From IMG/VR virus record IMGVR_UViG_3300007760_000056, positions 1-33,326 of that record: DNA of 33,326 nucleotides; one strand, given 5' to 3'. Within the stretch, counting starts at the first letter, position 1; each line of letters begins with the position of its first letter. Shown piece by piece: positions 6,262 through 31,620 of this stretch. The notes below the pieces were generated by a model, which did no database searches, had not been told where the DNA came from, and was given only the letters and a program-made list of their open reading frames with translations. The DNA comes from a virus. Position numbers and translations under genes: made by a program.

Positions 6262-6957
6262 CTATGATAAGCGGTATACTTGCAACCAACATTTTCCACC
6301 ATCAAGAGTTTGCGTACTCCCCTTGAAATGCATAAAGAAAACTTCTAAGTAATCATTCTGTGCTAGAGGAACCACCACCGCATTTGAAACATTTATTGCT
6401 GAGGTTGTGCTTGTGTTATTCTCAGCGAATATTTGATTCAGCGGTGAAAATGCGGCCGCACCATTTTTATAGAGATGGGCGATGCCTCTTTGACTTGCAC
6501 CAAACCCAGTCTGCATACCTACAGAAAAACTTACAAAATATTTCCCTGCCGCAGGAGCAACATACCTCTCATTTGCTAAATCAAAATTTGAGTCATCGTC
6601 ATAAAGCTCATGTGTGAAAGATATTTTTGTTAAAGTCGTTGTAGCAATAGACTGATTTGTGGAAATACCAGTATGCCCTGCTCCTGCCGCAGAAGCGTAT
6701 GTTGAAACTGGCAAGCTCGTCAAACTAGCCCCCGATATGGCAGGGAGATTCCCAGTAAGTTTACTAGCGGTCAACGTAGAAATTCTTGCGTCAGCAACAG
6801 TACCCGTTGAAATATTAGAAGCATTAAGAGCAGTCAATCCAGAACCACTTCCTGCTAAATTGTGTCCTGACTGAACGGTTACTGTAGTGCCTGACTGTCC
6901 TCCGATTGTATCGGCAGAAATCTTTGAGTTTGTTCCATCTATGTCTATTTGTGGCAT
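6262..6957 (-). CDS. Short tail fibre with C1q-like head (231 aa)
   Basis: After a short start (MPQIDIDGTNSKISADTIGG) the protein has the shared shaft NASNISTGTVADARISTL followed by the SKLTGNLPA hinge. Its DNA in this part is identical over 81 bases to the fibre at 13977-15596. From about residue 90 the head resembles a C1q/TNF-like jelly roll: 'TLTKISFTHELYDDDSNFD', 'RYVAPAAGKYFVSFSVGMQT', 'AHLYKNGAA', and 'VVPLAQNDYLEVFF'. Such heads form compact trimers at fibre tips and can bind host surface molecules. The ribosome site GGAGACTAACTA comes from the end of the relic sequence upstream. The jelly-roll call rests on pattern only. Confidence 0.85.
   Translation of the reverse strand: MPQIDIDGTNSKISADTIGGQSGTTVTVQSGHNLAGSGSGLTALNASNISTGTVADARISTLTASKLTGNLPAISGASLTSLPVSTYASAAGAGHTGISTNQSIATTTLTKISFTHELYDDDSNFDLANERYVAPAAGKYFVSFSVGMQTGFGASQRGIAHLYKNGAAAFSPLNQIFAENNTSTTSAINVSNAVVVPLAQNDYLEVFFMHFKGSTQTLDGGKCWLQVYRLS
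6746..6826. repeat. 81-base perfect direct repeat, copy 1 (partner 15052-15132)
   Basis: The two copies match base for base by eye over 81 bases. Both are inside fibre genes, in the same frame, and encode the NISTGTVADARISTL and SKLTGNL shaft-to-hinge segment. The identity at third codon positions points to recent duplication or gene conversion between these two fibres, which have different heads and different starts. Confidence 0.9.
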
Positions 6958-6974
6958 TAGTTAGTCTCCTTCTT

Positions 6975-7133
6975 CTATCGTATTACCTTCAGCCACCCAT
7001 TCTTGAATCTCTTGGTAGTCACGGTCACCACTATACTTGCTTTCTCTACTCCGTTAGCTTGGAACTTTATATCTTTTGATGCCCCGTCTGCATTGAGGGT
7101 TAAATGTTCCGAGGAACTTTTTATTGTTGACAT
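6975..7133 (-). pseudogene. Mosaic mini-ORF: fibre start joined to relic of a fibre-paired gene (52 aa)
   Basis: An ATG with a clear AGGAGATATAA ribosome site opens a 52-codon frame. Residues 1-33 copy the MSTIKSSSEHLTLNADG start of the fibre at 10140-11378, up to GVEKASI. The remaining residues (VVTVTTKRFKNGW...) have no counterpart. In another frame the same bases, down to a stop at 6961, read DRDYQEIQEWVAEGNT, which resembles the QEWIDEGNTPE segment of the proteins at 9822-10127 and 13656-13964. I read this as a scar left when a fibre start was joined out of frame to a fibre-paired gene. It may still be translated because its ribosome site is intact. Confidence 0.6.
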
Positions 7134-7382
7134 TTATATCTCCTGACTTGCTCTAAAGTCTGCCCATGCCTGTTTAACCGCAGGGGTATGTATCGTATTA
7201 GCAACGTCTTTCACACGTTGATCTTCATTGCTGGTATCTGAATCTGGTTCTACAACGTGTCGGTGATAAGTACGGCTAATCTCTACACCATCACGTTCTA
7301 TAATCGTATCAGTCCTTACTTGTATTTGTCCCATTGGTAATACATTTATACTGCCAATTTCTGTTCGCTCTGTTAAAGCCAT
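7134..7382 (-). CDS. Fibre-paired small protein, MALTERTEIG type (82 aa)
   Basis: I place the start at the ATG at 7382, preceded by AGGAGCAAAATA; an upstream in-frame ATG exists but lies inside the preceding fibre gene and has no ribosome site. The protein has the pattern GSINVLPMGQIQVRTDTIIE, then RDGVEISRTYHRHVVEPDSD and 'IHTPAVKQAWADF'. I recall this type (QVRxaTvixrDGvEIsRxyHRhv) as a frequent small gene next to tail fibre genes in several phage groups, function unknown. It follows the 210-residue fibre after 10 bases, the same arrangement as the YPK-ending small proteins, although it lacks the YPK end. Its stop is followed at once by the mosaic mini-ORF. Confidence 0.8.
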   Translation of the reverse strand: MALTERTEIGSINVLPMGQIQVRTDTIIERDGVEISRTYHRHVVEPDSDTSNEDQRVKDVANTIHTPAVKQAWADFRASQEI

Positions 7383-8375: not shown

Positions 8376-8397
8376 TCTTTATTCCTTTCTTTATTCC

Positions 8398-8526
8398 TTA
8401 GGAAACCTCTGCACCCATAAAAGACACACTGCTTAATGGCTCTGGCTCGATCACAATGGTTTGTTCCATTGGTATGTCAGTAGTGATTACTGCCGTAGAA
8501 CCGTTAGCAGTAATTTCTTTTTTCAT
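8398..8526 (-). CDS. Mini-ORF MKKEITANGSTAV (42 aa), possibly a mosaic
   Basis: The start overlaps the stop of the membrane protein gene by four bases (ATGA), a strong sign of translational coupling. The product reads MKKEITANGSTAVITTDIPM and then a Pro/Glu/Val-rich tail ending FMGAEVS. The segment NGSTAVITTD recurs in the 42-residue ORF at 15935-16063. The last bases (TTTCCTAAGGAATAA) equal the end of the 92-residue gene at 8841 apart from one base; read in the other frame they give QRFPKE, the ending of the fibre-paired small proteins. So the 3' end seems borrowed from such a gene. Function unknown. Confidence 0.6.
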   Translation of the reverse strand: MKKEITANGSTAVITTDIPMEQTIVIEPEPLSSVSFMGAEVS

Positions 8527-8837: not shown

Positions 8838-8840
8838 AAT

Positions 8841-9119
8841 TTATTCCTTAGGATACCTCTGCTTTACAGCCAAACAATCTGCGATGTACTTGTCTATCTG
8901 TGCCTGATCCCCTTTGACTATGCCGTCAAGGTAATCCGTGGCTGGGGGGTATTCTGCTTTTCTATCTTCTTTATATTTTTCTTCTGCAACCCATTTATCG
9001 TAAGCATCACACTCGCTGTTATGTGAATCAACTTCTGCTTGTGTCATTGGTCTTATTTCTTCACCACTTGGAGTAACTACACTAACGATTGCATCTTCGT
9101 GGCCTATATTTAATCTCAT
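8841..9119 (-). CDS. Fibre-paired small protein, YPK-ending (92 aa)
   Basis: The N-terminus MRLNIGHEDAIVSVVTPSGE and the middle IRPMTQAEVDSHNSECDAYD are specific to this copy. From residue 50 the family part begins: KWVAEEKYKEDRKAEYPPAT, then DYLDGIVKGDQAQIDKYIA and the ending AVKQRYPKE. 'R(K)xEYPpxxDyLDgivkgD' is a well spread variant of the YPxIGDQLD family in phages. It follows the 229-residue fibre after 12 bases with a good AAGGAGTTAGT ribosome site. I infer a fibre helper role from the recurring pairing; no direct evidence of function is in the sequence. Confidence 0.8.
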   Translation of the reverse strand: MRLNIGHEDAIVSVVTPSGEEIRPMTQAEVDSHNSECDAYDKWVAEEKYKEDRKAEYPPATDYLDGIVKGDQAQIDKYIADCLAVKQRYPKE

Positions 9120-9821: not shown

Positions 9822-10127
9822 TTAGTTAGTCTCCTTTGGGATATCTGATTTTACTTTTGCAATGTGAGCCTGATACACTTCCATCCCTTGCTCTCCGATC
9901 ATCTCGAATTGCTCGCCAGTTGTGCCATAGCCACCGTCTGCCATGTTAGCTAAACGCTTGTCTAGCCAAGTTGGTTCTGGTGCGACATATGGTTCTGGCG
10001 TATTGCCTTCGTCTATCCATTCCTGAACTGTATCGTTGTACTTAGCCCCCATTATTTGGGAAACTCCGTACTGATCGTTTACACAATAGCTTCCATCCGA
10101 TTGCATTTTTACTGTTTTAATTATCAT
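9822..10127 (-). CDS. Fibre-paired small protein, MADGGYGTTGEQ type (101 aa)
   Basis: The protein starts MIIKTVKMQSDGSYCVND and contains VQEWIDEGNTPEPYVAPEPT, then WLDKRLANMADGGYGTTGEQ, FEMIGEQGMEVYQAHI and the ending AKVKSDIPKETN. The C-terminal half is nearly identical, in DNA as well as protein, to the gene at 13656-13964; the N-terminal 35 residues differ. Its architecture (variable start, QEWxxEGNT linker, helical end with V-K-x-x-I-P-K) makes it a variant of the YPK-ending small proteins in this array. It follows the 412-residue fibre after 12 bases and abuts the next fibre start. Proposed role: fibre assembly or attachment helper (inference). Confidence 0.8.
   Translation of the reverse strand: MIIKTVKMQSDGSYCVNDQYGVSQIMGAKYNDTVQEWIDEGNTPEPYVAPEPTWLDKRLANMADGGYGTTGEQFEMIGEQGMEVYQAHIAKVKSDIPKETN
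9841..10022. repeat. About 182-base direct repeat, copy 1 (partner 13666-13847)
   Basis: By eye I count three differences between the two copies over about 182 bases. Each copy encodes the C-terminal two thirds of the fibre-paired small protein of its cassette. Upstream of the repeat, the N-terminal coding parts are clearly different, so the boundary is sharp near the QEWIDEGNT codons. Confidence 0.85.
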
Positions 10128-10139
10128 TGATTATATCCT

Positions 10140-11378
10140 CTAGTGTCTCGCATCTATTATAACTGTTCCAGCCACATTGTTGTTATTTCTCAATATTCCA
10201 CAATTTCCCGCAACCAGACCAGAGGAATGTGTTGTTACTAACCTACAATGATCTTTTCCTACAACTTCATAAACATTAGCTGATGAACAAGCAACTACAC
10301 CACCAGAGGCGTTCATAACCGAGTAATGTGATGCTGTACCACTTCCATTAGATATAGCAGGTATCACTCTTTTCGGTGAAAAGTGTAAGTTGATATATGC
10401 GGAGGTAGTAGACCTACAGAGGCCTGATGCAATATGGTCATAAGCTAAGTTTCCTCCAAACACTTGAATATAATACTCCACCTGATCTTTTACAGTAGCT
10501 ATCGGAGGTGACGTAAAGGTAGGTGCGTTAGAGCCTAATGTTAATTGAACTTGTGAGAAATACATATAGTTTGACACACTGCTTAATCCATTCACTTGAT
10601 TAGCTGTTGATTTTTCATTTGTATTCCTCCACGCACCTGCTGTCCCGTGCCAGTCTGAGCCTGCTTCAAGAACAAAAGTTATTGTCAACCCTATATCTGT
10701 ATCATCAAATAGCCAAGTACCCGAAGTATCTAACGTAAGCGTGATTGAAGCCTTCTCCCAAGTGTTTGTGGTTGTTTGAGTATATTCAGCAAGATAATGC
10801 CTGTTCCCTGCTGAATTTTGGAAATGAATACAGTATGTCCCTGTTACGGTATGGCGATGCCAGAAGCTTAACGTCACCTCTTGTCCGTGTAATGAAGAAT
10901 AATCTGTCCCTGTTATGTGATAAAAATATTCATAGTATGAAGCATTAGACGGAGAAGCATCCGCAGTTGTAACATCTAGCTCCAGAGAATATTTCGATTG
11001 GTAGCTACTCTCTGCCACCGTTGGCACGGTTGTGCTTCTATTCGCATTCCAGTTTGCCGTAGTATGCCCATTATACTCAAAGAGTGCAGAGGCATATTCT
11101 CCCGTTGCTCTGACTCGTGATGTCCCTTCAGGCCACTGCGTAAAATCTCCATCGATTATAAAATTACGTTTGTTTCCCGTAGTGATACCAGTCAAACTAC
11201 TTCCGTCAATGGCAGGGAGATTCCCAGTAAGAGCCGTAGCATCTATAGTCGTTGAGGTAAACGCACCAGCACTACTGATACTAGCCTTCTCTACCCCGTT
11301 GGCTTGGAACTTAATGTCTTTTGATGCCCCGTCAGCGTTAAGGGTCAAATGTTCCGAGGAACTTTTAATTGTTGACAT
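10140..11378 (-). CDS. Tail fibre with carbohydrate-binding-like head (412 aa)
   Basis: Residues 1-34 are the MSTIKSSSEHLTLNADG module seen again in two mini-ORFs. A hinge TALTGNLPAIDGSSLTGIT follows. From about residue 70 the protein has KRNFIIDGDFTQWPEGT, a version of the 'RNxliNGdFxxWqrGts' opening of carbohydrate-binding-like domains in phage tail proteins, continuing through YYEYFYHITGTDY, VTLSFWHRHTVTGTY and TTNTWEKASITLTLD. A further block (LGSNAPTFTSPPIATVKDQV) and a variable tip end in DARH. It is a paralogue of the fibre at 13977-15596 from the hinge onward. The start overlaps the preceding stop by one base (TAATG). Confidence 0.85.
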   Translation of the reverse strand: MSTIKSSSEHLTLNADGASKDIKFQANGVEKASISSAGAFTSTTIDATALTGNLPAIDGSSLTGITTGNKRNFIIDGDFTQWPEGTSRVRATGEYASALFEYNGHTTANWNANRSTTVPTVAESSYQSKYSLELDVTTADASPSNASYYEYFYHITGTDYSSLHGQEVTLSFWHRHTVTGTYCIHFQNSAGNRHYLAEYTQTTTNTWEKASITLTLDTSGTWLFDDTDIGLTITFVLEAGSDWHGTAGAWRNTNEKSTANQVNGLSSVSNYMYFSQVQLTLGSNAPTFTSPPIATVKDQVEYYIQVFGGNLAYDHIASGLCRSTTSAYINLHFSPKRVIPAISNGSGTASHYSVMNASGGVVACSSANVYEVVGKDHCRLVTTHSSGLVAGNCGILRNNNNVAGTVIIDARH

Positions 11379-13655: not shown

Positions 13656-13964
13656 TCATTTTGGTATATCTGATTTTACTTTTGCAATGTGAGCCTGATA
13701 CACTTCCATCCCTTGCTCTCCGATCATCTCGAATTGCTCGCCAGTTGTGCCATAGCCACCGTCTGCCATGTTAGCTAACCGCTTGTCTAGCCAAGTTGGT
13801 TCTGGTTCGACATAAGGTTCTGGCGTATTGCCTTCGTCTATCCATTCTTGGATCATTACACGATGGCGGTTGCCCATATCATCAGGAACGACAACTTGGT
13901 CAGTCGCACCGCTATTAACTATAAATGAACCGTCTATTTGTATTTTTACTGTTTTAATTTTCAC
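13656..13964 (-). CDS. Fibre-paired small protein, MADGGYGTTGEQ type, GTG start (102 aa)
   Basis: The start is GTG at 13964 with AGGAGATATAATCA as ribosome site; the sister gene at 9822-10127 has ATG at the same place. Residues 1-35 (MKIKTVKIQIDGSFIVNSGA, then TDQVVVPDDMGNRHRV) differ from the sister after the first few, whereas IQEWIDEGNTPEPYVEPEPT and everything after, to AKVKSDIPK, is nearly identical. It lacks the final three residues of the sister. It follows the 539-residue fibre after 12 bases. Because the fibres of both pairs are also paralogues, the fibre and this gene were probably duplicated together and then diversified at their variable parts. Confidence 0.8.
   Translation of the reverse strand: MKIKTVKIQIDGSFIVNSGATDQVVVPDDMGNRHRVMIQEWIDEGNTPEPYVEPEPTWLDKRLANMADGGYGTTGEQFEMIGEQGMEVYQAHIAKVKSDIPK
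13666..13847. repeat. About 182-base direct repeat, copy 2 (partner 9841-10022)
   Basis: This is the second copy of the block described at 9841-10022, with about three base differences. It lies 3825 bases away in the same orientation, so recombination between the copies would remove the four genes' worth of fibres in between. Confidence 0.85.
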
Positions 13965-13976
13965 TGATTATATCTC

Positions 13977-15596
13977 CTAGTGTCTCGCATCTGCCTGTAC
14001 CCAATCACCTGAATCAACTGTTCGCAAAATTACACCACCGTCACCAGCTAAACCAGATGACACAGTAACTAAAATTCTTGCCCCTTGTTTACTTATATTA
14101 CCGAATGTTATGGCAGTTGCATTATCGACACCAACTCCTTGATGGGCCTGTAAACAAGTTGCATCAAAACGTGTCATTGCTGGAGTGGCTCTCATAACTT
14201 TAGGAAATTTTAATAGACCATACGCATATAGACCATTTTCTGCCATCCCAGAACAAATATCGTGATTAGCAACCGTACCACCATACCTCTGCACATAGTA
14301 AGCCACCTGATCCTGCACAGTAGCTATCGGAGGTGACGTAAAGGTAGGTGCGGTTGAACCAAGATAGAGGCCGACCTGTGATAATCTAAAGAAGTTACTA
14401 GTCGAATCAACACTATTAACTTGATTGCTGGTAGCCCACTTACTTGTCTCCGTTAACCAAGTATCTTTAGCCCCTGCAATCTGGTGGTCTGTTCCAGCGG
14501 CTAACACAAACGCTATATCCAACCCCTTGTCTGCCTCTGTATAGAGAAATGTTGCCCCACTGTCAAAGGTAAAGGTTTCCGTATGCTGTTCCCATGTATC
14601 AGTAGTTGTTTGAGTATATTCAAATACATAACATTCTGTACTAGCAGAATTACCAAGACGGACACAATGTATACCTGTCTTTGTATGTTTATGCCAAAAT
14701 GACATGGTACATTGCTGTCCTTCAAGAGCCGTAAAATCGCTACCTGTTACAAAGTACCGCCACATAGTTCTATCACCAGTACCCATGGTATCTGATGTTG
14801 TGACATCTGTCTCAAAAGAATAAGCTGATTGATGTCCAGATTGAGCCACGGTAGGGACATCAGTTGAACGTGTAGCATCAACCACAGCAGAGCCAGAATT
14901 GAGTAACTCAAATAACGCTGGCCCATAACTACCACTAGATACTGAGGTGTTATCCGTCCCTTCAGGCCACTGCGTAAAATCTCCATCGATTATAAAATTA
15001 CGTTTTTCTCCCGTAGTGATACCAGTCAAACTACTACCATCAATGGCTGGCAGATTCCCAGTAAGTTTACTAGCGGTCAACGTAGAAATTCTTGCGTCAG
15101 CAACAGTACCCGTTGAAATATTAGAAGCATTAGTTGTATCCGTAGTCGCTGAAGCGGCTAGTCCATGTGAAGTAATTGAAGTAACTGCACCAGATACTTT
15201 TGATGTGGCTATAGCCGCACTTGCGTTGATGTCAGCGTTTACAATTTCACCATCCACAATTTTATCAGAAGTAACCGAGTTATCCGCTAACTTAGTTGTT
15301 GTTACAGTACCATCTGCAAATATGGTTGTAGTTGGTTTGAATCCAATATGCAAAACTCTTACTTCATCACTAGCTGTTAAACCAGCTGTAAAAGTAAGAG
15401 TTCGATTTCCAGTACCACCAACTCCGTATGCTGTACCAGATTGTAGTACACCATTGATAGCAACAACAATATCTGTTTCTATAGTAACATCAGCAGTTAA
15501 GGTGAAAACAGTTTGACCAGCAGTAGCAGTAAAAATATCTTCACTCGTACTTTGCCCTGTTACTAAACTATCTGGAGCTTTACCTATGTATGCCAT
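13977..15596 (-). CDS. Tail fibre with carbohydrate-binding-like head (539 aa)
   Basis: Domains in order: an N-terminal docking domain of about 90 residues (MAYIGKAPDSLVTGQ ... VLHIGFKP), AKI-type repeats (DGTVTTTKLADNSVTSDKIV) to about residue 160, the shared NISTGTVADARISTL segment, and the hinge LTGNLPAIDGSSLTGITTG. Then KRNFIIDGDFTQWPEGTDN opens a carbohydrate-binding-like head (MSFWHKHTKTGIHC, TTDTWEQHTETFTFD), with the block APTFTSPPIATVQDQVAYYV and a variable tip ending in DARH. From the hinge onward it is a paralogue of the 412-residue fibre at 10140-11378, whose start is different. It is followed by its small partner gene after 12 bases. Probably a receptor-binding fibre; ligand unknown. 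Confidence 0.85.
   Translation of the reverse strand: MAYIGKAPDSLVTGQSTSEDIFTATAGQTVFTLTADVTIETDIVVAINGVLQSGTAYGVGGTGNRTLTFTAGLTASDEVRVLHIGFKPTTTIFADGTVTTTKLADNSVTSDKIVDGEIVNADINASAAIATSKVSGAVTSITSHGLAASATTDTTNASNISTGTVADARISTLTASKLTGNLPAIDGSSLTGITTGEKRNFIIDGDFTQWPEGTDNTSVSSGSYGPALFELLNSGSAVVDATRSTDVPTVAQSGHQSAYSFETDVTTSDTMGTGDRTMWRYFVTGSDFTALEGQQCTMSFWHKHTKTGIHCVRLGNSASTECYVFEYTQTTTDTWEQHTETFTFDSGATFLYTEADKGLDIAFVLAAGTDHQIAGAKDTWLTETSKWATSNQVNSVDSTSNFFRLSQVGLYLGSTAPTFTSPPIATVQDQVAYYVQRYGGTVANHDICSGMAENGLYAYGLLKFPKVMRATPAMTRFDATCLQAHQGVGVDNATAITFGNISKQGARILVTVSSGLAGDGGVILRTVDSGDWVQADARH
15052..15132. repeat. 81-base perfect direct repeat, copy 2 (partner 6746-6826)
   Basis: This copy lies in the shaft-to-hinge part of the 539-residue fibre. 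It is identical by eye to the block in the C1q-like fibre at 6262-6957, about 8.3 kb away in the same orientation. Confidence 0.9.
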
Positions 15597-15923
15597 TTAG
15601 TTTACGTCCTCTAGGATTGAGGCTACAACATCTACTGCACCGCTTGATGTAACTTTAATTAAATCTCCTGTTTCTAAAATAACCTTTTGACCTGCTATAA
15701 CTTGTAATGCACTTCCAGAAGGTATTGGTGCATCTTTGACAAGATATGCTGTAGAAGTTGCAGAGGTATCTGTAACCTGTACGGAAGTTTGAACAACAGC
15801 TGTTGTAGTATTAGCAACATCCAATTCCAATAGAATAGAAGTTTTAGCAGACGGAGCAGTATATATTGTAGTAGCAGTTGTTATATTAGTTGCTTGTGCA
15901 TTTTTAAATGTATTTGTTCCCAT
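15597..15923 (-). CDS. Small beta-sandwich virion protein, paralogue 2 (108 aa)
   Basis: The protein starts MGTNTFKNAQATNITTATTI and contains YTAPSAKTSILLELDVANTT, APIPSGSALQVIAGQKVILE and TGDLIKVTSSGAVDVVASIL. It shares the 'PIPSGSALxxxxGxKVxxETGDxxKV' core and the two-part beta pattern with the 110-residue protein at 12943-13275. Its stop abuts the start of the 539-residue fibre, and the shared order (this protein, then an AKI fibre) is seen for both paralogues. A small adaptor or decoration protein is likely; the exact site on the virion cannot be told. Confidence 0.8.
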   Translation of the reverse strand: MGTNTFKNAQATNITTATTIYTAPSAKTSILLELDVANTTTAVVQTSVQVTDTSATSTAYLVKDAPIPSGSALQVIAGQKVILETGDLIKVTSSGAVDVVASILEDVN

Positions 15924-15934
15924 TCGTTATCTCT

Positions 15935-16063
15935 TTATTTTTTGATATTCGGTAAGTCAGTAGTGATTACTGCCGTAGAACCGTTAGCTTGGAACTTTAT
16001 ATCTTTTGATACACCATCGGCATTGAGGGTCAAATGTTCCGAGGAACTTTTAATTGTTGACAT
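15935..16063 (-). CDS. Hybrid mini-ORF: MSTIK fibre start joined to NGSTAVITTD module (42 aa)
   Basis: An ATG with a strong AGGAGATATAA site opens 42 codons. Residues 1-28 equal the start module of the 412-residue fibre (MSTIKSSSEHLTLNADG ... KDIKFQANG, one or two changes). From residue 27 on the sequence (NGSTAVITTDLP) equals residues 8-19 of the mini-ORF at 8398-8526, followed by NIKK and a stop. The switch falls at GCTAACGG, eight bases common to both parents, so the joint is in frame. It may be a translated stub or only a scar. No other function is visible. Confidence 0.6.
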   Translation of the reverse strand: MSTIKSSSEHLTLNADGVSKDIKFQANGSTAVITTDLPNIKK

Positions 16064-16072
16064 TTATATCTC

Positions 16073-17368
16073 CTAATAATTAACGGCCCAGCCGTGTAAT
16101 TGGGTTTCCATTGAACCACTAGCTTGACTTGCCCATACAGCTTTCATTGCTACTTGAGTGCCGGAGGTAACTGTAGTCTTACCCAACTTCACCTGTTTTG
16201 TAGTGCCACTAAATGTTTGTGCTGTTCCATAACTTGAGGCTTCAGTCCAGTTCGATCCGTTGTCTGCCGTGAAGTAAATCTTTAAGTGTGTTCCTAATGT
16301 GGCTGTGCCAACATTATCTTTATAGAGTATTACCCCTGATACTTCTGTCGTGGCTGATGGAGCAGTTTGTGTGTCTGATATTAGAGTACCTGTGGCACTA
16401 GCAGAACTGCTTGTTTCTTGCCAACTAATACCTGTATAATTCCGTGGGGCTGACCCACCACTACCAACACAAGTATACATATCGGCTGTAGTTTGACTAG
16501 TTAGTGTTGTTTTAACCACATTATCTACATAATAAGTAATGGTCGATCCTACTCTTGTGATTTTAAATACAGCACTAGTGGCTGGGTCAAATGAGGTTTG
16601 GACTGACCCTCCTTTATTTGTTCCATTTGTTACATATGCCCTACTTTCATAAGCTAGAAAATATGAATTTGTCATGCTAGCCATCGCACCATGCTCGTGA
16701 CCACTAGCGAATGTTCCTACCTCTGACGTTGGGAATACTCCCAACCAACCACCGTTACCATTGCCACCCCCTGTAAAAGTTCCAGTAAACTCAAAATCAC
16801 CAGACACAGAACTTGAACTCCTTATGGCTTTATCGCCAGCATTATGTGTAACAGTGCCAGCACCAACGGTTATTGTTGATGTTGACCCTGCCCAATCACT
16901 TAATGATGATGGAGTTGTTGTGGTAGTGCTAGTATAAACACTCGCCACATATTCACCAGTTGTCCTATCCACATTTGTTTCCGTAGTTATCCCAGTATCA
17001 TCTTCAAAGGTATCTATAAACGCATTAGGTAGATTATATGCCACTTTATTATCAGCGACACCCATATGTAAACCTAATGTAGCTATTGATTGGTTCACTG
17101 ATGTTAGGTCAACGTGTTGAGTTACTGCACTTGCAGGTATACGGGCGTTTGCTATAGTCCCAGATGTGATGTTTGAAGCATTAGTTGTATCAGTAGTCGC
17201 TGAGGTAACAAGACCAGCAACTTGAGCATTTGGAAGATCAACTATTCTGGCGTTAGGTAAAGTTCCAGTAGTTAAATCACTAGCACTTGTTGATTGATTA
17301 TCTAATGAACTACTAACAACATCACCACCAGCATCTAATAAATCTGCTAAATCTCTTGCTTTTGTCAT
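16073..17368 (-). CDS. Tail fibre with concanavalin-like lectin head in a shared frame (431 aa)
   Basis: The N-terminal part has a short start (MTKARDLADLLDAGGDV) and AKI-like repeats with LPNARIVDLPNAQVAGL and VNQSIATLGLHMGVADNK. The C-terminal 110 residues (ATGTLISDTQTAPSATTEVS ... ETQLHGWAVNY) resemble a beta-rich end domain. Both parts are nearly identical to the fibre at 30271-31620. The middle, about residues 140-322, is specific: GDFEFTGTFTGGGNGNGGWL, FKITRVGSTITYYVDNVVK and TADMYTCVGSGGSAP, which has the pattern of a concanavalin-A-like lectin sandwich. Glycan binding is inferred. The stop is TAG while its paralogue uses TAA. Confidence 0.85.
   Translation of the reverse strand: MTKARDLADLLDAGGDVVSSSLDNQSTSASDLTTGTLPNARIVDLPNAQVAGLVTSATTDTTNASNITSGTIANARIPASAVTQHVDLTSVNQSIATLGLHMGVADNKVAYNLPNAFIDTFEDDTGITTETNVDRTTGEYVASVYTSTTTTTPSSLSDWAGSTSTITVGAGTVTHNAGDKAIRSSSSVSGDFEFTGTFTGGGNGNGGWLGVFPTSEVGTFASGHEHGAMASMTNSYFLAYESRAYVTNGTNKGGSVQTSFDPATSAVFKITRVGSTITYYVDNVVKTTLTSQTTADMYTCVGSGGSAPRNYTGISWQETSSSASATGTLISDTQTAPSATTEVSGVILYKDNVGTATLGTHLKIYFTADNGSNWTEASSYGTAQTFSGTTKQVKLGKTTVTSGTQVAMKAVWASQASGSMETQLHGWAVNY
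16074..16402. repeat. 329-base conserved block, C-terminal end of lectin fibre (partner 30272-30600)
   Basis: The two copies align without gaps (constant offset 14198) and differ at scattered, mostly third-position sites. They encode the shared C-terminal domain of the two paralogous fibres and end sharply where the head domains begin. Confidence 0.85.
16951..17269. repeat. 319-base conserved block, shaft of lectin fibre (partner 31122-31440)
   Basis: Copies align without gaps (constant offset 14171) with few differences. They encode the shaft from LPNARIV to NVDRTT(G/S)EY. Together with the 329-base block they bracket the exchanged middle: 548 bases here and 521 bases in the partner, a difference of nine whole codons. 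Confidence 0.85.
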
Positions 17369-21574: not shown

Positions 21575-24500
21575 TTATGCCAATGCAATTACTCTTAAAT
21601 TTTTAATCAAAGGTATTTTAGTAGTATTAGCAGAAGTCATAACAATTTTTATAGCAAATACTTTAAAACTATTATATGTAACACTGTTTGATGTATAATC
21701 AGTATTACCAGTAGAAGGATTAAATTCTAATTCTAAATATTGGTTTCCATCATCAGAAGCAGAAACAGTATTCGTATTTGTTGTCTCACTCATTAATACC
21801 CAAGGACGATTATCAAAAGTATCAGCATCAAATTGTGATAATACTTTATGATAAACTGAAATAGCAGTTCCTGCTTGCCTATTAGCAGTCATGTATACTG
21901 ATAAATCAGTTGCATCAAAACCATCTTTTAAATTAACTCGTCTTGTAATATATCTCGCCGCAGAATCACCACCCTCAGCATTTGTTTCATCAGTTGTAAC
22001 ATTGTTAATATTATTTTCTACTGTAATAACACTATTTCTTTTCGTATCAATTACAGGTGAAATATAGGTACTGCTTGATGATAATGTGGCCTGTGATATA
22101 TAACTTCCAGCGCTTGTTGTAATCTTCTTTTGTGTAGAAAGTTTATGATTAGTATTTTGAATAATTTCAGAATAAGAAGTATCTAATACTCCTGTACCAG
22201 CATCAGACATTTTAACTCCCCAAAAAATAGAAGTCTTATTTAGTCTAACTTCTTCGGGAACAATTTGAATCACATCTGCTTTAACATCCGCTGCGGAAGT
22301 TCCGTCTTTAAAGACTGCATTAGCAGTAGCACCTGTAGTAAATACTGCCCTATTTAATTGAAATGTCAAATCTTGATTTTGATCAGCACTCCAAGTACTT
22401 GCATTTTGTGATTTAAATAGTACACCAGCATATGGTTGTTCTGATACTTTTCTTGTCGTTCCAAGAATGTTGTCACCCATTTCAGAAATATATACTTCAT
22501 ACTTCAAACTATTACTCAATGCAACAATTGCATACTCTCCGGGTGGTAGATAAACTAATGATGGAAAAGTAAATTTAGTAGCCAATGAGGCATCATCACT
22601 TATATTAACATCGGTTGGTAATTTATTAACTTCGGAAAATGGTATAATAGTTTTATCTGGATAACCATTCAAAGTACTTCTAATTTGTATGGTTACCGGA
22701 AGATTATCTGTATCTTTAGATTTAAAATATAATTCTAAATCTGTTAGAAAAATTCCATTTGGATAAATACCTCCATCAACCAAGAAGGTTTGAGCCAATG
22801 GATCAAACCATCCAATAACATTTGATCTTGTAAATATGTTTGATGTAGTTCTGAAATCAGTTGCTGAACCCATTCCTAAACTTTGTACTCTTGGAACTCT
22901 TGTAGATACAACTACATTTTCTTGTGTCTGTAACAATCCTTGTGCTTGATATACAACTTCACCATATGTTCCAGCACTTACTAAGTCTGCTGTTGTATTA
23001 TCAACCAATAAGAATTGTCTTTCACCAGTTCTAAATCTAAGAGTATCACTATTTGGAATGGAAAAAGTTAAACCAGTAATTGAACCAGATGAATCTGTAT
23101 AAACTGCATCACCCAAAGAACCTCCAGTTGGAGTACAATAAGCAGCTACATCAATACCATCAAAGAATGGATACACTCTTGTGTTTGGTTTCATTCCTGT
23201 TACAGATATAGCTATATCTCTTGCTCTAATAAAAGGAATAATAGAAACATCAACTACTCTATCACCGACACTATTTCTTACAGTATCAACTCCAGTAATT
23301 TCTGTACGAATTCCTGTTCTTGTCTGTAATACTTCATTTCGTACCGTTTGTCTTTGTAGTAGAGCATTTCCTTCTCGCCAAGTTGGACCAGATTCTAAAA
23401 CAGTTTCCCTACCAGTACCATTAATTGTTTCCCAATCATTAAATTGGGAACCAAATCCTAAACCAACTAAGGCAGCCCAACCATCATTCTCACCATTAAT
23501 ATTAACAACAACTTCAGGTCGTGTAGTAGTATCAATCCAATTATCATTTGGTGGTGTTAGGTCAACTGTTCCAATCCAAGCTAATACTGCGAATGGATTA
23601 ACATTAATTGATTTACTTGCCACTGTTTGTGTTACAAATGCTGTTGCAGTATACGGTAATGTAATTAGATCACCTGTTTTCTGTACACCACTAGAAGAAC
23701 TAGAATCATAAACCAAGTCCGTTAAATTAGAAGTGAATGGTGATCTTAATATTTTTTCATCAAAATCAATAGCAGCTTTGTAATCAGCAGATAAAACATT
23801 ACCAACACTATGCCCATTGAAACCATCTACAAGCATACCATTTTTAAATCTATCTAATCCAGCTGTATCTTTAATAACTAATTCTTCTGCTTCTTTTTCA
23901 AGTAATGAAAGTGTAGTATAATATTCTAAATTGTTAATTCGTTTTTCAAGTTTACCAATATCTTTCATTGTATATCGTTTATTCTCAATATATTTTGATG
24001 TTACATCACTTGAATTAAATGTATATGCTGGAATATAAATAGTATATAAATCCATTGTTCCATCAAGTTGTTGTGGAGGAACAGTATTTAATGATGGTAT
24101 ACCTTTATTCACTCCAAACTTTCTTTCTTTACTTAAAAATATTCTGTCTATTCTTGGGAGATAGTAACTATAATCAGCTTGCCAATTTGTATTTGGAAAA
24201 GGCAATTCAATATTTTCCATTATAGTTCCACCATCTGCTCGCCTTGGTCTAAAGTCAACACAATCTCTGAGTTCAACTTTAGTACCAGTAACAGGACTTG
24301 TGTAAGTTGGAATATTATCAAATCCAACTGCGGCTGTATATGAATCAGCTGAAAGATAACCAACACCAGAATGAGTAAAGTAATCATATACAATACCAAT
24401 TCTACCAGTCGGTCCTGTCTGTCCGGCTTTTAATTTTATTTGCCCATGATCATAAAAGTTATCTCGTTGACCTGTATCTAATTCATATCTTGTAGTAATG

Positions 24501-26944
24501 TCAGTATCACCCGTGGCGACAGAAGAAACTGTTTTTGTAAATCCACTTGTTCCTCCAGTAATTGTCTCGGCAACAAATGTACCAGATACTGGAACATAAG
24601 TAACAGTAGTTGTACTTCCTGCTCCAAGAACAACCGTACCCGTAGCACCTGATGTTCCTCCAGTAATTGTTTCACCGGGAGTCATTGTATCTGCTGTACT
24701 TCCGACAGTTAATGTAGGTAAAGTTGCATTTGAACCGGCAGCACCAGAATCATATACTGCGTGAATTTTATATACATCTGATTTATTTAAAGAATCGAAT
24801 GATAGTGCAGTTGTATTAGGTCCCGTAACATCAAGTACATTACTTTTTACAAGTGTTTTAACTCTCTCTTGTTTACTATCAATATTAAGTGTTGCAATAA
24901 TATCTGCCGTAAAATTACTTACTGAATTATCATAAAAAGTAACTGTAGTATTTGAAGGCGCATTAACTGTAATTGTTTGACTAGCTCCATCAAAAGCAAT
25001 TAAGTCATTTGCAAGATAACCAGAAGTACCAGCCGTTTTAACTGTAGTTGTATAATATTCCTTTTTGTTACTATTACTTAATGCACCACTACCAAAGAAA
25101 GTTTCAGAAGCACCAGCTGTTGATATTGTTGCGGTACCATTTGCAAATGAAACATTTTCAAAAGTTCTTTTAATAGTATAACTAGTATCAATAACACCAA
25201 GATCATCACGAATCGTTTTAATAGTATCCTGTGGTAATTTAAACACTAAACTATTATCAGAGGTTTCAAAAAGTTTTGCATCACCACCTACAACTCCACC
25301 GACCTTACCAGTATCATCAATATTTGCTTTTGCATTTACAACAACCGGTGTTGCCCCCGAATTAACAGGAACTACAATAGATTCAACAGAACCAAATGTT
25401 GAACTGGTCATTACAACATCAAACAAATACATATTAATAATTTGATTTGCCCCTGTCCCAGAAACATAATCGATATTTCTTACTTTAGCTGTTCCAATTT
25501 TTGTTGAGGAATATGTAGTGGGATTAGTTAATGTTATAGAAGTATGAACAGTATTATGTAAATCAACTGTTACCTGCTCAGAAATATCAAAATAACCTTT
25601 ATAATCTTTTACTACTGCATAATTACCATATTGCATTAACCTGTCAAAATTATTTACATTAATATAACTTCTCGCTCGATCTAATGTAATATCAGTTGAA
25701 GTAACTGTTTCATATTCGTGTCCTTCGATAAATGCTTTACCAGGATCAAGCCGAACAGTAAATTTAGTTGAATCAGATGTGTGGTCTTTTACTTGTGATG
25801 AAAATGCTCTTACAGTATAACTGCCAGACTCATCATGTGTCCTTCGAGCAAATGTTTCTTCTAGTACTGAATATACTGGTATTTTAACATCTTTTTCTTT
25901 AACCCCAGCATTAACTCTAAGCAATTCATAAAAATCTGTATCGTCTGTTGAAGTTAAAGTTTTCTTTGTAAGGGCAAGTGAATATTTTAATCTATCCGCA
26001 CCCGGTGCCGCAAAATTATATGAACCTTGAGCATTATCCAATAGTGTTGAATCAGTACCAGAATCAATTACTGTTTCAGTAACAGTCAATCCAGTTTTAT
26101 AAGAAGGCGTATTTGTATACTTATCAAGTATCAAAGTATGTGTTGATACATTAATAAAATTTCCTTTTATATAAAATACACCACTATTAATGGAAACTGC
26201 ACTACCTTTTCCCGTTGGTGAGGAACTTGCCGTTACTGCAGATATAGATAAATCAATCGCACTAATTCTTTCACCGGCAGTAAATGCAGCTGCAGTTGAT
26301 AATGTTGCTGCTGCCGTACCACCACTTCCACCACCACCTGAAATACTTACAGAAGGCAATGAAGTATAATCAGAGCCAGCAGTTGTTACATTAATTCCTG
26401 TAATAACACCACTACTATTAATAACAGCTGTTGCTGTTGCTCCTGTACCAGAACCACCGGTTATTGATACAGTTGGTGCTGTAGTATAACCTGTTCCCCC
26501 AGCAGTTACTGCTATCCCTTGAACACCATTAGTGACAGAATCTCCTGTAATATATTTTACAAAAACAGTATTAGGATCACCAGTAACAGAATCAATAGCA
26601 CTATTATTTAATACAAGTGCTTTAGCACCCGAAGTAGAACCTATAATTGTTTTACCAGCAAAAGTCGCAACATCAATATCTACACTATTATATTGCTGTT
26701 GCAACTTTACATATTCGTAATCAAGGTTAAGAATTAACTCACCACCAGTAACCTTACTACCATTTTGAAAAACATGATCACCAAACTTTTTAATTTGATT
26801 ACGAAGGATACTTTGTTCTTGTGTTAATTCTCTTGCTTGAACGGGTAATGCGGCCTTGTAGAGAACTTGATGAAAGTTTTTACTATCATCAAAATCATCA
26901 AAGTAAGGTGATTGATTTACATTTACATTTATATTTGCTGTCAT
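21575..26944 (-). CDS. Giant DUF4815-like baseplate/fibre-network structural protein (1789 aa)
   Basis: The N-terminus ([40 protein letters not shown]) and the segment at about 925-1010 ([37 protein letters not shown]) are typical of the DUF4815 family of phage structural proteins. Glycine-rich '[20 protein letters not shown]' units occupy about 145-220 and '[15 protein letters not shown]' modules about 755-806. A later part ([48 protein letters not shown]) is a beta-sandwich block common in marine T4-like virions. By position it stands where T4 has genes 9-10, so I infer a peripheral baseplate component that anchors fibres. It is the largest gene in the window and has no obvious enzymatic domain. 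Confidence 0.85.
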
Positions 26945-30270: not shown

Positions 30271-31620
30271 TTAATAATTAACGGCCCAGCCGTGTAATTG
30301 GGTTTCCATTGTTCCACTGGCCTGACTGGCCCATACAGCTTTTATTGCTACTTGAGTGCCGGAGGTAACTGTAGTCTTACCCAACTTTACCTGTTTTGTG
30401 GTGCCACTAAAAGTTTGAGCCGTTCCGTAGCTGGATGCTTCAGTCCAGTTCGAGCCGTTATCAGCCGTGAAGTAAATCTTTAAGTGTGTTCCTAATGTGG
30501 CTGTGCCAGCGTTGTCTTTATATAAAATTACTCCTGATACTTCTGTAGTGGCTGATGGGGCAGTTTGTGTGTCAGAGATAAGAGTACCTGTGGCATTAGC
30601 AAAAGACAGGAGTTCATTCGCAAAAAACTGTACTTCAGCACAACGTATATAATTAGGTGAACCACCTGAAGTAAATTTTATCCAATGATAACGGTAAGCG
30701 GTAGAAGTTGTTAGTCCAGACAGTTTAGTATAATCAGCAACGTGATTATTTTGTCTAAAATTAAGTCCAGTTAAACCACCTAAATTAACCGCAGTTCCAG
30801 TATTATCAACCGAATTTCCAAAAAGTGTTAACGAACATCCAGAAGAAGCATTACCAGCATCGGTCATCCCATCATTATTTGTTGACCAACATTTAAAACC
30901 ATTTATTGTATTTGTATTTCCACTTCCCCAATCTTTGCCAAGCCACGCTACAGTAACACTCGCATCATGAACCGCAGAAGCATTATTTGATTGATTCGTT
31001 GTTCCATCAAATGCTGCGGCTAACCCACCATAAGCACTACCATCAAAAGTTCCTATAGGAGTTCCAGTTCCCTGTGCAATTTGAGCTTGACTACCCTCCA
31101 CTTCATATACCGATGCAAAATATTCACTAGTTGTCCTATCCACATTTGTTTCCGTAGTTATCCCAGTATCATCTTCAAAGGTATCTATGAAAGCATTGGG
31201 TAAATTAAATGCCACTTTATTATCAGCGACACCCATATGCAAACCTAATGTAGCTATTGATTGGTTTACTGATGTTAGGTCAACGTGTTGAGTTACTGCA
31301 CTTGAAGGTATACGGGCGTCTGCTATAGTCCCAGATGTGATGTTTGAAGCATTAGTTGTATCGGTAGTCGCTGAAGCGGCTAGTCCAGCAACTTGAGCAT
31401 TTGGAAGATCAACTATTCTAGCGTTAGGTAAAGTCCCAGTTAGTTTACTGGCATCAACACCTGTAGCCAAATGTGCATCATCAACACCACCATCAACTAA
31501 ATGTTCACTATTAACAACATCATCTGCTATCTTAGTTCCGTCAACTGCATCAGCATTTATCTTGGCTGTTGTTACTGCGTTATCTTCTATATTACTTGAT
31601 TTTATTCGTGTTAATGCCAT
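30271..31620 (-). CDS. Tail fibre with discoidin-like head in a shared frame (449 aa)
   Basis: The start MALTRIKSSNIEDNAVTTAK runs into AKI-type repeats (VDGTKIADDVVNSEHLVDGG). The shaft and the C-terminal 110 residues are nearly identical to the fibre at 16073-17368. The middle (about residues 167-339) differs: GTFDGSAYGGLAAAFDGTTN, SVTVAWLGKDWGSGNTNT, INGFKCWSTNNDG, and YRYHWIKFTSGGSPNY with CAEVQFFA. That pattern (FDGTT, WLGKDWG, Y-R-Y-H-W, AEVQFF) resembles discoidin/F5-8C-like or galactose-binding folds in phage adhesins, which is inference. The gene is inserted between gp6 and gp7, neighbours in T4, with 9 and 12 bases to each side. Confidence 0.85.
   Translation of the reverse strand: MALTRIKSSNIEDNAVTTAKINADAVDGTKIADDVVNSEHLVDGGVDDAHLATGVDASKLTGTLPNARIVDLPNAQVAGLAASATTDTTNASNITSGTIADARIPSSAVTQHVDLTSVNQSIATLGLHMGVADNKVAFNLPNAFIDTFEDDTGITTETNVDRTTSEYFASVYEVEGSQAQIAQGTGTPIGTFDGSAYGGLAAAFDGTTNQSNNASAVHDASVTVAWLGKDWGSGNTNTINGFKCWSTNNDGMTDAGNASSGCSLTLFGNSVDNTGTAVNLGGLTGLNFRQNNHVADYTKLSGLTTSTAYRYHWIKFTSGGSPNYIRCAEVQFFANELLSFANATGTLISDTQTAPSATTEVSGVILYKDNAGTATLGTHLKIYFTADNGSNWTEASSYGTAQTFSGTTKQVKLGKTTVTSGTQVAIKAVWASQASGTMETQLHGWAVNY
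30272..30600. repeat. 329-base conserved block, C-terminal end of discoidin-like fibre (partner 16074-16402)
   Basis: Second copy of the shared C-terminal block, in the same orientation, 14198 bases from the first. Recombination between the copies would delete or exchange the head and everything between, including gp7 and gp8, so deletion would be lethal but copy-to-copy conversion could move heads. Confidence 0.85.
31122..31440. repeat. 319-base conserved block, shaft of discoidin-like fibre (partner 16951-17269)
   Basis: Second copy of the shared shaft block. Upstream of it the two fibres have unrelated N-terminal starts, so the conserved frame is limited to shaft and end domain. Confidence 0.85.

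Follow-up and report, generated by a model that had tools for sequence, protein, structure and literature searches.

A hybrid 42-codon reading frame in the tail-fibre array of a T4-like marine phage, probably a recombination scar with a copied patch

How did a reading frame of 42 codons come to join the start of a tail-fibre gene to part of another small ORF, and does the phage make use of the product? The frame, ORF A (15935-16063), lies in the virus record IMGVR_UViG_3300007760_000056 of an uncultured marine phage, analysed here over its full 33,326 bases (the window); the minus strand carries all the main genes of the window and every feature located below, and on it ORF A reads MSTIKSSSEHLTLNADGVSKDIKFQANGSTAVITTDLPNIKK. 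The setting is T4-like in its structural genes, with the baseplate wedge families phrog_219 and phrog_438 on the right side of the window and relatives that include the Methylophilales phage Melnitz (classed in Kyanoviridae). Fibre-like genes form a long array in alternation with small genes, several of them with matches to phrog_9114 and a terminal ...YPK; the array genes have relatives in Pelagibacter, Methylophilales and cyanobacterial phages. Exact direct repeats of at least 16 nt number 47 in the window, against 0-1 in each Markov-shuffled version of it. Within this array ORF A stands between a fibre gene upstream (16073-17368) and the gene 15597-15923 downstream, with gaps of only 9 and 11 nt. 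Elsewhere a fibre gene of full length (10140-11378) retains its MSTIK head intact and precedes a small gene (9822-10127). Neither the Rfam nor the tRNA scan of the whole window gave a hit, and the complete fibre 10140-11378 had no match in a PDB search.

The first 28 codons of ORF A (15980-16063) form an MSTIK head, 27 of whose 28 residues equal those of the heads of 6975-7133 (ORF C) and 10140-11378, with V18 in place of A18 as the sole exception. The sequence-only reading had regarded these codons as a copy of the module in those two genes, which stands for the protein but not for the DNA, as no exact head is present in the window: over the first 83 nt, ORF A differs at 6 positions from ORF C, at 9 from 10140-11378 and at 5 from the allele of ORF C in contig L008. 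Synonymous and nonsynonymous differences stand at 6:1 between ORF A and ORF C, 9:1 between ORF A and 10140-11378, and 9:0 between the latter two, the lone amino-acid change among the three window heads being that in ORF A. This almost wholly synonymous divergence looks as if it had been gathered while the heads belonged to working fibres. The second piece, at 15956-15988, equals 8476-8508 in ORF B (8398-8526) over 33 of 33 nt, or 37 of 38 if extended to 15951 through the next proline, so that the source had been named correctly, whereas its extent had not: codons 26-36 of ORF A correspond to codons 7-17 of ORF B, not to codons 8-19. The alignment that had been proposed gives an exact match of 30 nt between 15981-16010 and ORF C (7051-7080) and one of 33 nt with ORF B, overlapping by the 8 nt GCTAACGG (15981-15988), which occur on the coding strand at exactly three places, 15981-15988, 8501-8508 and 7051-7058. 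The switch at eight bases shared by both parents accordingly holds for ORFs B and C; the equivalent site in 10140-11378 reads GCCAACGG and shares just 5 contiguous bases with the joint, and this gene, with its 9 differences from ORF A, was rejected as the donor of the head. The microhomology of 8 nt thus bounds one end of the insert, its head side, and the donor of the patch persists in the genome.

The joint in ORF A is confirmed as real. In 30 Markov-shuffled windows the longest exact repeat was 19 nt, as against the 30 and 33 nt at the joint, and a blunt join would give at least 8 bases of flanking identity with a probability of about 2e-4. Between two genes of such lengths, however, some four matches of 8 nt are to be expected, so the homology at the joint was available but not unique. 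Convergence of the patch at the protein level was also considered and rejected, since its 11 codons could be spelled in about 1 million synonymous ways, yet the DNA matches exactly. Two further IMG/VR contigs, L005 and L006 (metagenomes 3300009008 and 3300007509), carry ORF A letter for letter.

The direction in which ORF A was formed is clear from the comparison of the sequences, with ORF B as the donor. The patch differs from the ORF B of the window at 0 of 33 positions and from that of L051 at 3 of 33, which argues that it was copied after those lineages of ORF B had split. In agreement with the unjoined state that had been expected in other phages, the ORF B segment occurs without an MSTIK head in L051 and L293, and nearly all other heads run on as VEKAS (VEKASI) before entering a wide variety of fibre bodies; together with the identity between the patch and the phage's own ORF B, this shows that head and ORF B were combined in this lineage. 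ORFs B and C are themselves recombinant debris, broken fusions with fragments of small genes. ORF B, of 42 residues, is a truncated relative of a 67-residue protein found amid lysis-type genes of another phage (L051; L293, 110-313), and it has lost the C-terminal hydrophobic segment of that protein, with 22 differences from L051 in the first 108 nt and 15 in the last 21 nt. Its end, GCAGAGGTTTCCTAAGGAATAAA (8390-8412), agrees at 22 of 23 nt with 8840-8862, where the small gene 8841-9119 ends, but is read in another frame. ORF C (6975-7133), a second orphan MSTIK head, continues, out of frame, into a piece of a further small gene; in frame +2 this piece reads SGDRDYQEIQEWVAEGNTIEEGD (6964-7035) and is related to small proteins in L099, L103, L127 and L130. 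Neither Pfam nor PHROGs yielded a family for ORF A or ORF B, and tblastn of each against annotated phages gave no matches even at E=10.

On its other side, the head is accompanied by its ribosome-binding leader, AGGAGATATAA (16064-16074). Leader and head together match 7123-7144 exactly over 22 nt and, in the L008 allele of ORF C, over 43 nt (16032-16074). The end of the upstream fibre (16074-16113) equals 30272-30311 exactly over 40 nt, and the identity with this paralogue ends at 16074, the first base of the leader. As the fibre-end match stops where the 43-nt match starts, the travelling unit consists of leader and head. In all, 35 distinct MSTIK head sequences were found, with many different bodies and upstream neighbours; in L035 and L046 an altered frame cuts the head short, and in L047 (4413-4475) an independent orphan head runs for 20 codons and terminates immediately ahead of a holin-like gene. 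A near-palindrome, AAAAGTTCCTCGGAACATTT, is identical in all three window heads (7102-7121, 11347-11366 and 16032-16051); more distant heads do not keep it, and it probably reflects recent copying rather than a site. It is conceivable, although rather unlikely, that leader and head constitute a mobile gene-start cassette, each landing or collapse of which, sealed by a patch, seeds a new translatable mini-ORF; such a cassette would offer a natural and directly readable route to new small phage genes. Small shared gene-start segments tied to gene shuffling are also known from T4-like phages as PeSL cassettes, mobile units of promoter and stem-loop (Arbiol 2010, Comeau 2014, cited in PMC4503421). 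That model does not fit ORF A: a scan for sigma-70-type promoters gave 2 promoter-like sites against 2.9 in shuffles, the gaps to the neighbours are only those noted above, and the single weak terminator-like stem (0.7 expected) falls within the terminal part of the upstream fibre gene rather than in the shared leader.

ORF A ends in a tail, GAATATCAAAAAATAA (15935-15950), whose origin may be seen in L054, a relative 81% identical over the large gene 21575-26944. In L054 an intact small gene, ending DKYPKE / ALKVVKDKYPKE, lies just before the orthologue of 15597-15923, and the last bases of ORF A with the following gap, AATATC--AAAAAATAAAGAG, align with the end of that gene, AATATCCTAAAGAATAAAGAG. 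The resemblance is no more than suggestive of the end of a lost small gene, since in a control 13 of 957 TAA-ended 24-mers of the window score as high; on this reading, the gene formerly in the slot would end close to TTACCGAATATC..AAAAAATAA. No genome was found with an MSTIK fibre, a small gene and 15597-15923 in succession, as the slot would have stood before the scar. The sequence-only reading had built ORF A from two parents and had placed both of them, with the recombinant, in the window. ORF B is there effectively unchanged, but an exact donor of the head is not, and ORF A appears to be composed of at least four pieces rather than two, namely the fibre-gene end, the leader with the head, the ORF B patch and the small-gene-like tail.

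Taken together, ORF A is probably a scar of recombination, filled by a copied patch and left in a tail-fibre array that is shuffled by short homologies. The start unit of leader and MSTIK fibre head would once have headed a full fibre gene in this slot, with a small fibre-adjacent gene next to it, and the fibre body and nearly all of the small gene would then have been lost. At the break, 25-30 nt would have been copied from the phage's own ORF B, entered through the eight shared bases GCTAACGG, after which copying would have returned to the final codons of the small gene, both switches being made in a single event. The reading frame would have been kept by chance, as expected one time in three; the sister scar in ORF C is out of frame. 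Regarding the chemistry, template switching during replication and short-homology annealing by a phage recombinase fit equally well. The microhomology-driven joining suggested at the outset is borne out as a short-homology joint between head and ORF B and is plausible as a mechanism, although copying through annealing by a recombinase would leave the same trace. The small-gene fragments that ORFs B and C carry in the same way as ORF A, the 20-codon orphan head of L047, and the deletion and conversion-like tract of L005 described below count in favour of a scar. The shortness of the tail match to L054 counts against it, as do the tight spacing and the good ribosome-binding site, both of which a genuine small gene could equally have.

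The main rival to the copied patch is a history in two steps and with no filler copy, in which a second copy of ORF B lay beside the MSTIK fibre in this slot and deletions fused first head to ORF B and later ORF B to the small-gene end. The orphan head of L047, which directly precedes a holin-like gene, is in line with such an arrangement, as is the ORF B of the window, which adjoins a gene with weak holin-like matches. Nevertheless, this history needs an extra and recent copy of ORF B (0 of 33 differences) of which only about 38 nt would be left, and no such duplicate was seen in any contig, so that it is considered unlikely.

A different possibility is that selection has retained the hybrid as a working small gene, its product being, for example, a shortened fibre head that acts as a cap or competitor when fibres are assembled. 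An intact ATG with a good ribosome-binding site, the tight spacing to both neighbours, and a reading frame that is kept and identical in three contigs would all agree with this; however, along the extended aligned parts the identity to the window is 99.97% for L006 and about 99.3% or more for L005, indicating that both belong to the same species, and identity over 129 nt within a species of at least 99% says nothing about conservation. Moreover, ORF A holds the only amino-acid change among the three heads, it matches no family, and the sister orphan heads (ORF C and the 20-codon head of L047) end out of frame or at once, and thus no common short product is preserved. Conservation of the 42-residue protein as a unit across distant phages, which would have marked it as an ancestral gene, was looked for among viral contigs with exact degenerate patterns, which may overlook distant relatives that differ in these residues, and only the contigs of the same species were recovered; no phage outside this species was found to have it. 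The pattern KFQANGSTA had three hits in genome contigs, all rejected as relatives of ORF A, since one (L297) has the peptide in an unrelated frame of 52 codons and the other two lack it. No evidence of function was found, and a functional role for the hybrid seems improbable; as judged from its sequence, the peptide is probably not needed, although the ribosome-binding site makes translation possible.

An assembly artefact is very improbable as the source of the joint: although repeats of 30-40 nt are plentiful in this region, the matches at the joint are shorter than typical reads, and the window shares the joint with contigs of two further metagenomes, which is not what a one-off misassembly would give.

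With the copied-patch scar as the preferred reading, exchange between slots may still be going on in this species. L005 is joined from 15052-15132 to 6746-6826 within an exact repeat of 81 nt and is thereby 8,306 bp shorter, and the resulting chimeric fibre ORF stays open over 342 codons (L005 3158-3265 corresponds to 15025-15132 and 6719-6826 of the window). In a conversion-like tract of the upstream fibre (17069-17249), all 12 differences of L005 equal the paralogue 31240-31420. Homologous exchange between slots would account for the two of them; they could also be assembly chimeras, as they lie in repeats.

The process behind ORF A is of a known kind, here unusually legible. The shuffling of tail-fibre adhesin modules by recombination is described for T4-type phages (Tetart et al. 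1998, cited in PMC3797505). In T4-like fibre genes, as here, short stretches common to otherwise different genes serve as crossover points and chimeric fibres result, such as that of L005; the same module occurs with different partners, as the 35 MSTIK heads do, and the crossovers fall in shared sequence, as at the GCTAACGG overlap and the 81-nt repeat. Such crossovers are reportedly placed at short conserved motifs. In contrast to adhesin shuffling, the exchange here involves paralogous slots of one genome, and what results is a short, patched scar rather than a functioning adhesin. Phage mosaicism has also been attributed to relaxed homologous recombination by Rad52-like recombinases, including in side-tail-fibre genes (De Paepe et al. 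2014, PMC3945230), and exchange through short or diverged homologies is common to both cases; the phage-prophage homologies used there are much longer (one region spans 700 bp), whereas here they amount to 8 nt within one genome, and no recombinase was recognised in the window. Templated insertions at microhomology joints (MMBIR/MMEJ) have been described in eukaryotes, with enzymes of their own (PMC8421209, PMC11724301), and likewise carry a short stretch copied from another place in the genome and bounded by a few shared bases, although the resemblance lies in the trace only and implies no such enzyme for this phage.

ORF A is thus most likely leftover debris of ordinary tail-fibre shuffling and not a new working gene, a warning that short ORFs between fibre genes can be debris even when they have good ribosome-binding sites. 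Mosaicism in phages usually has to be deduced from genomes with lost ancestors; in this case donor, product, sister scars and two further exchanges all occur within one virus species, and the lengths of homology (8 and 81 nt) and the size of the patch can therefore be read directly. Elsewhere in the array, 113 bases are identical between 13666-13778 and 9841-9953, in the small-gene paralogues 13656-13964 and 9822-10127, pointing to a probable conversion or duplication of very recent date.
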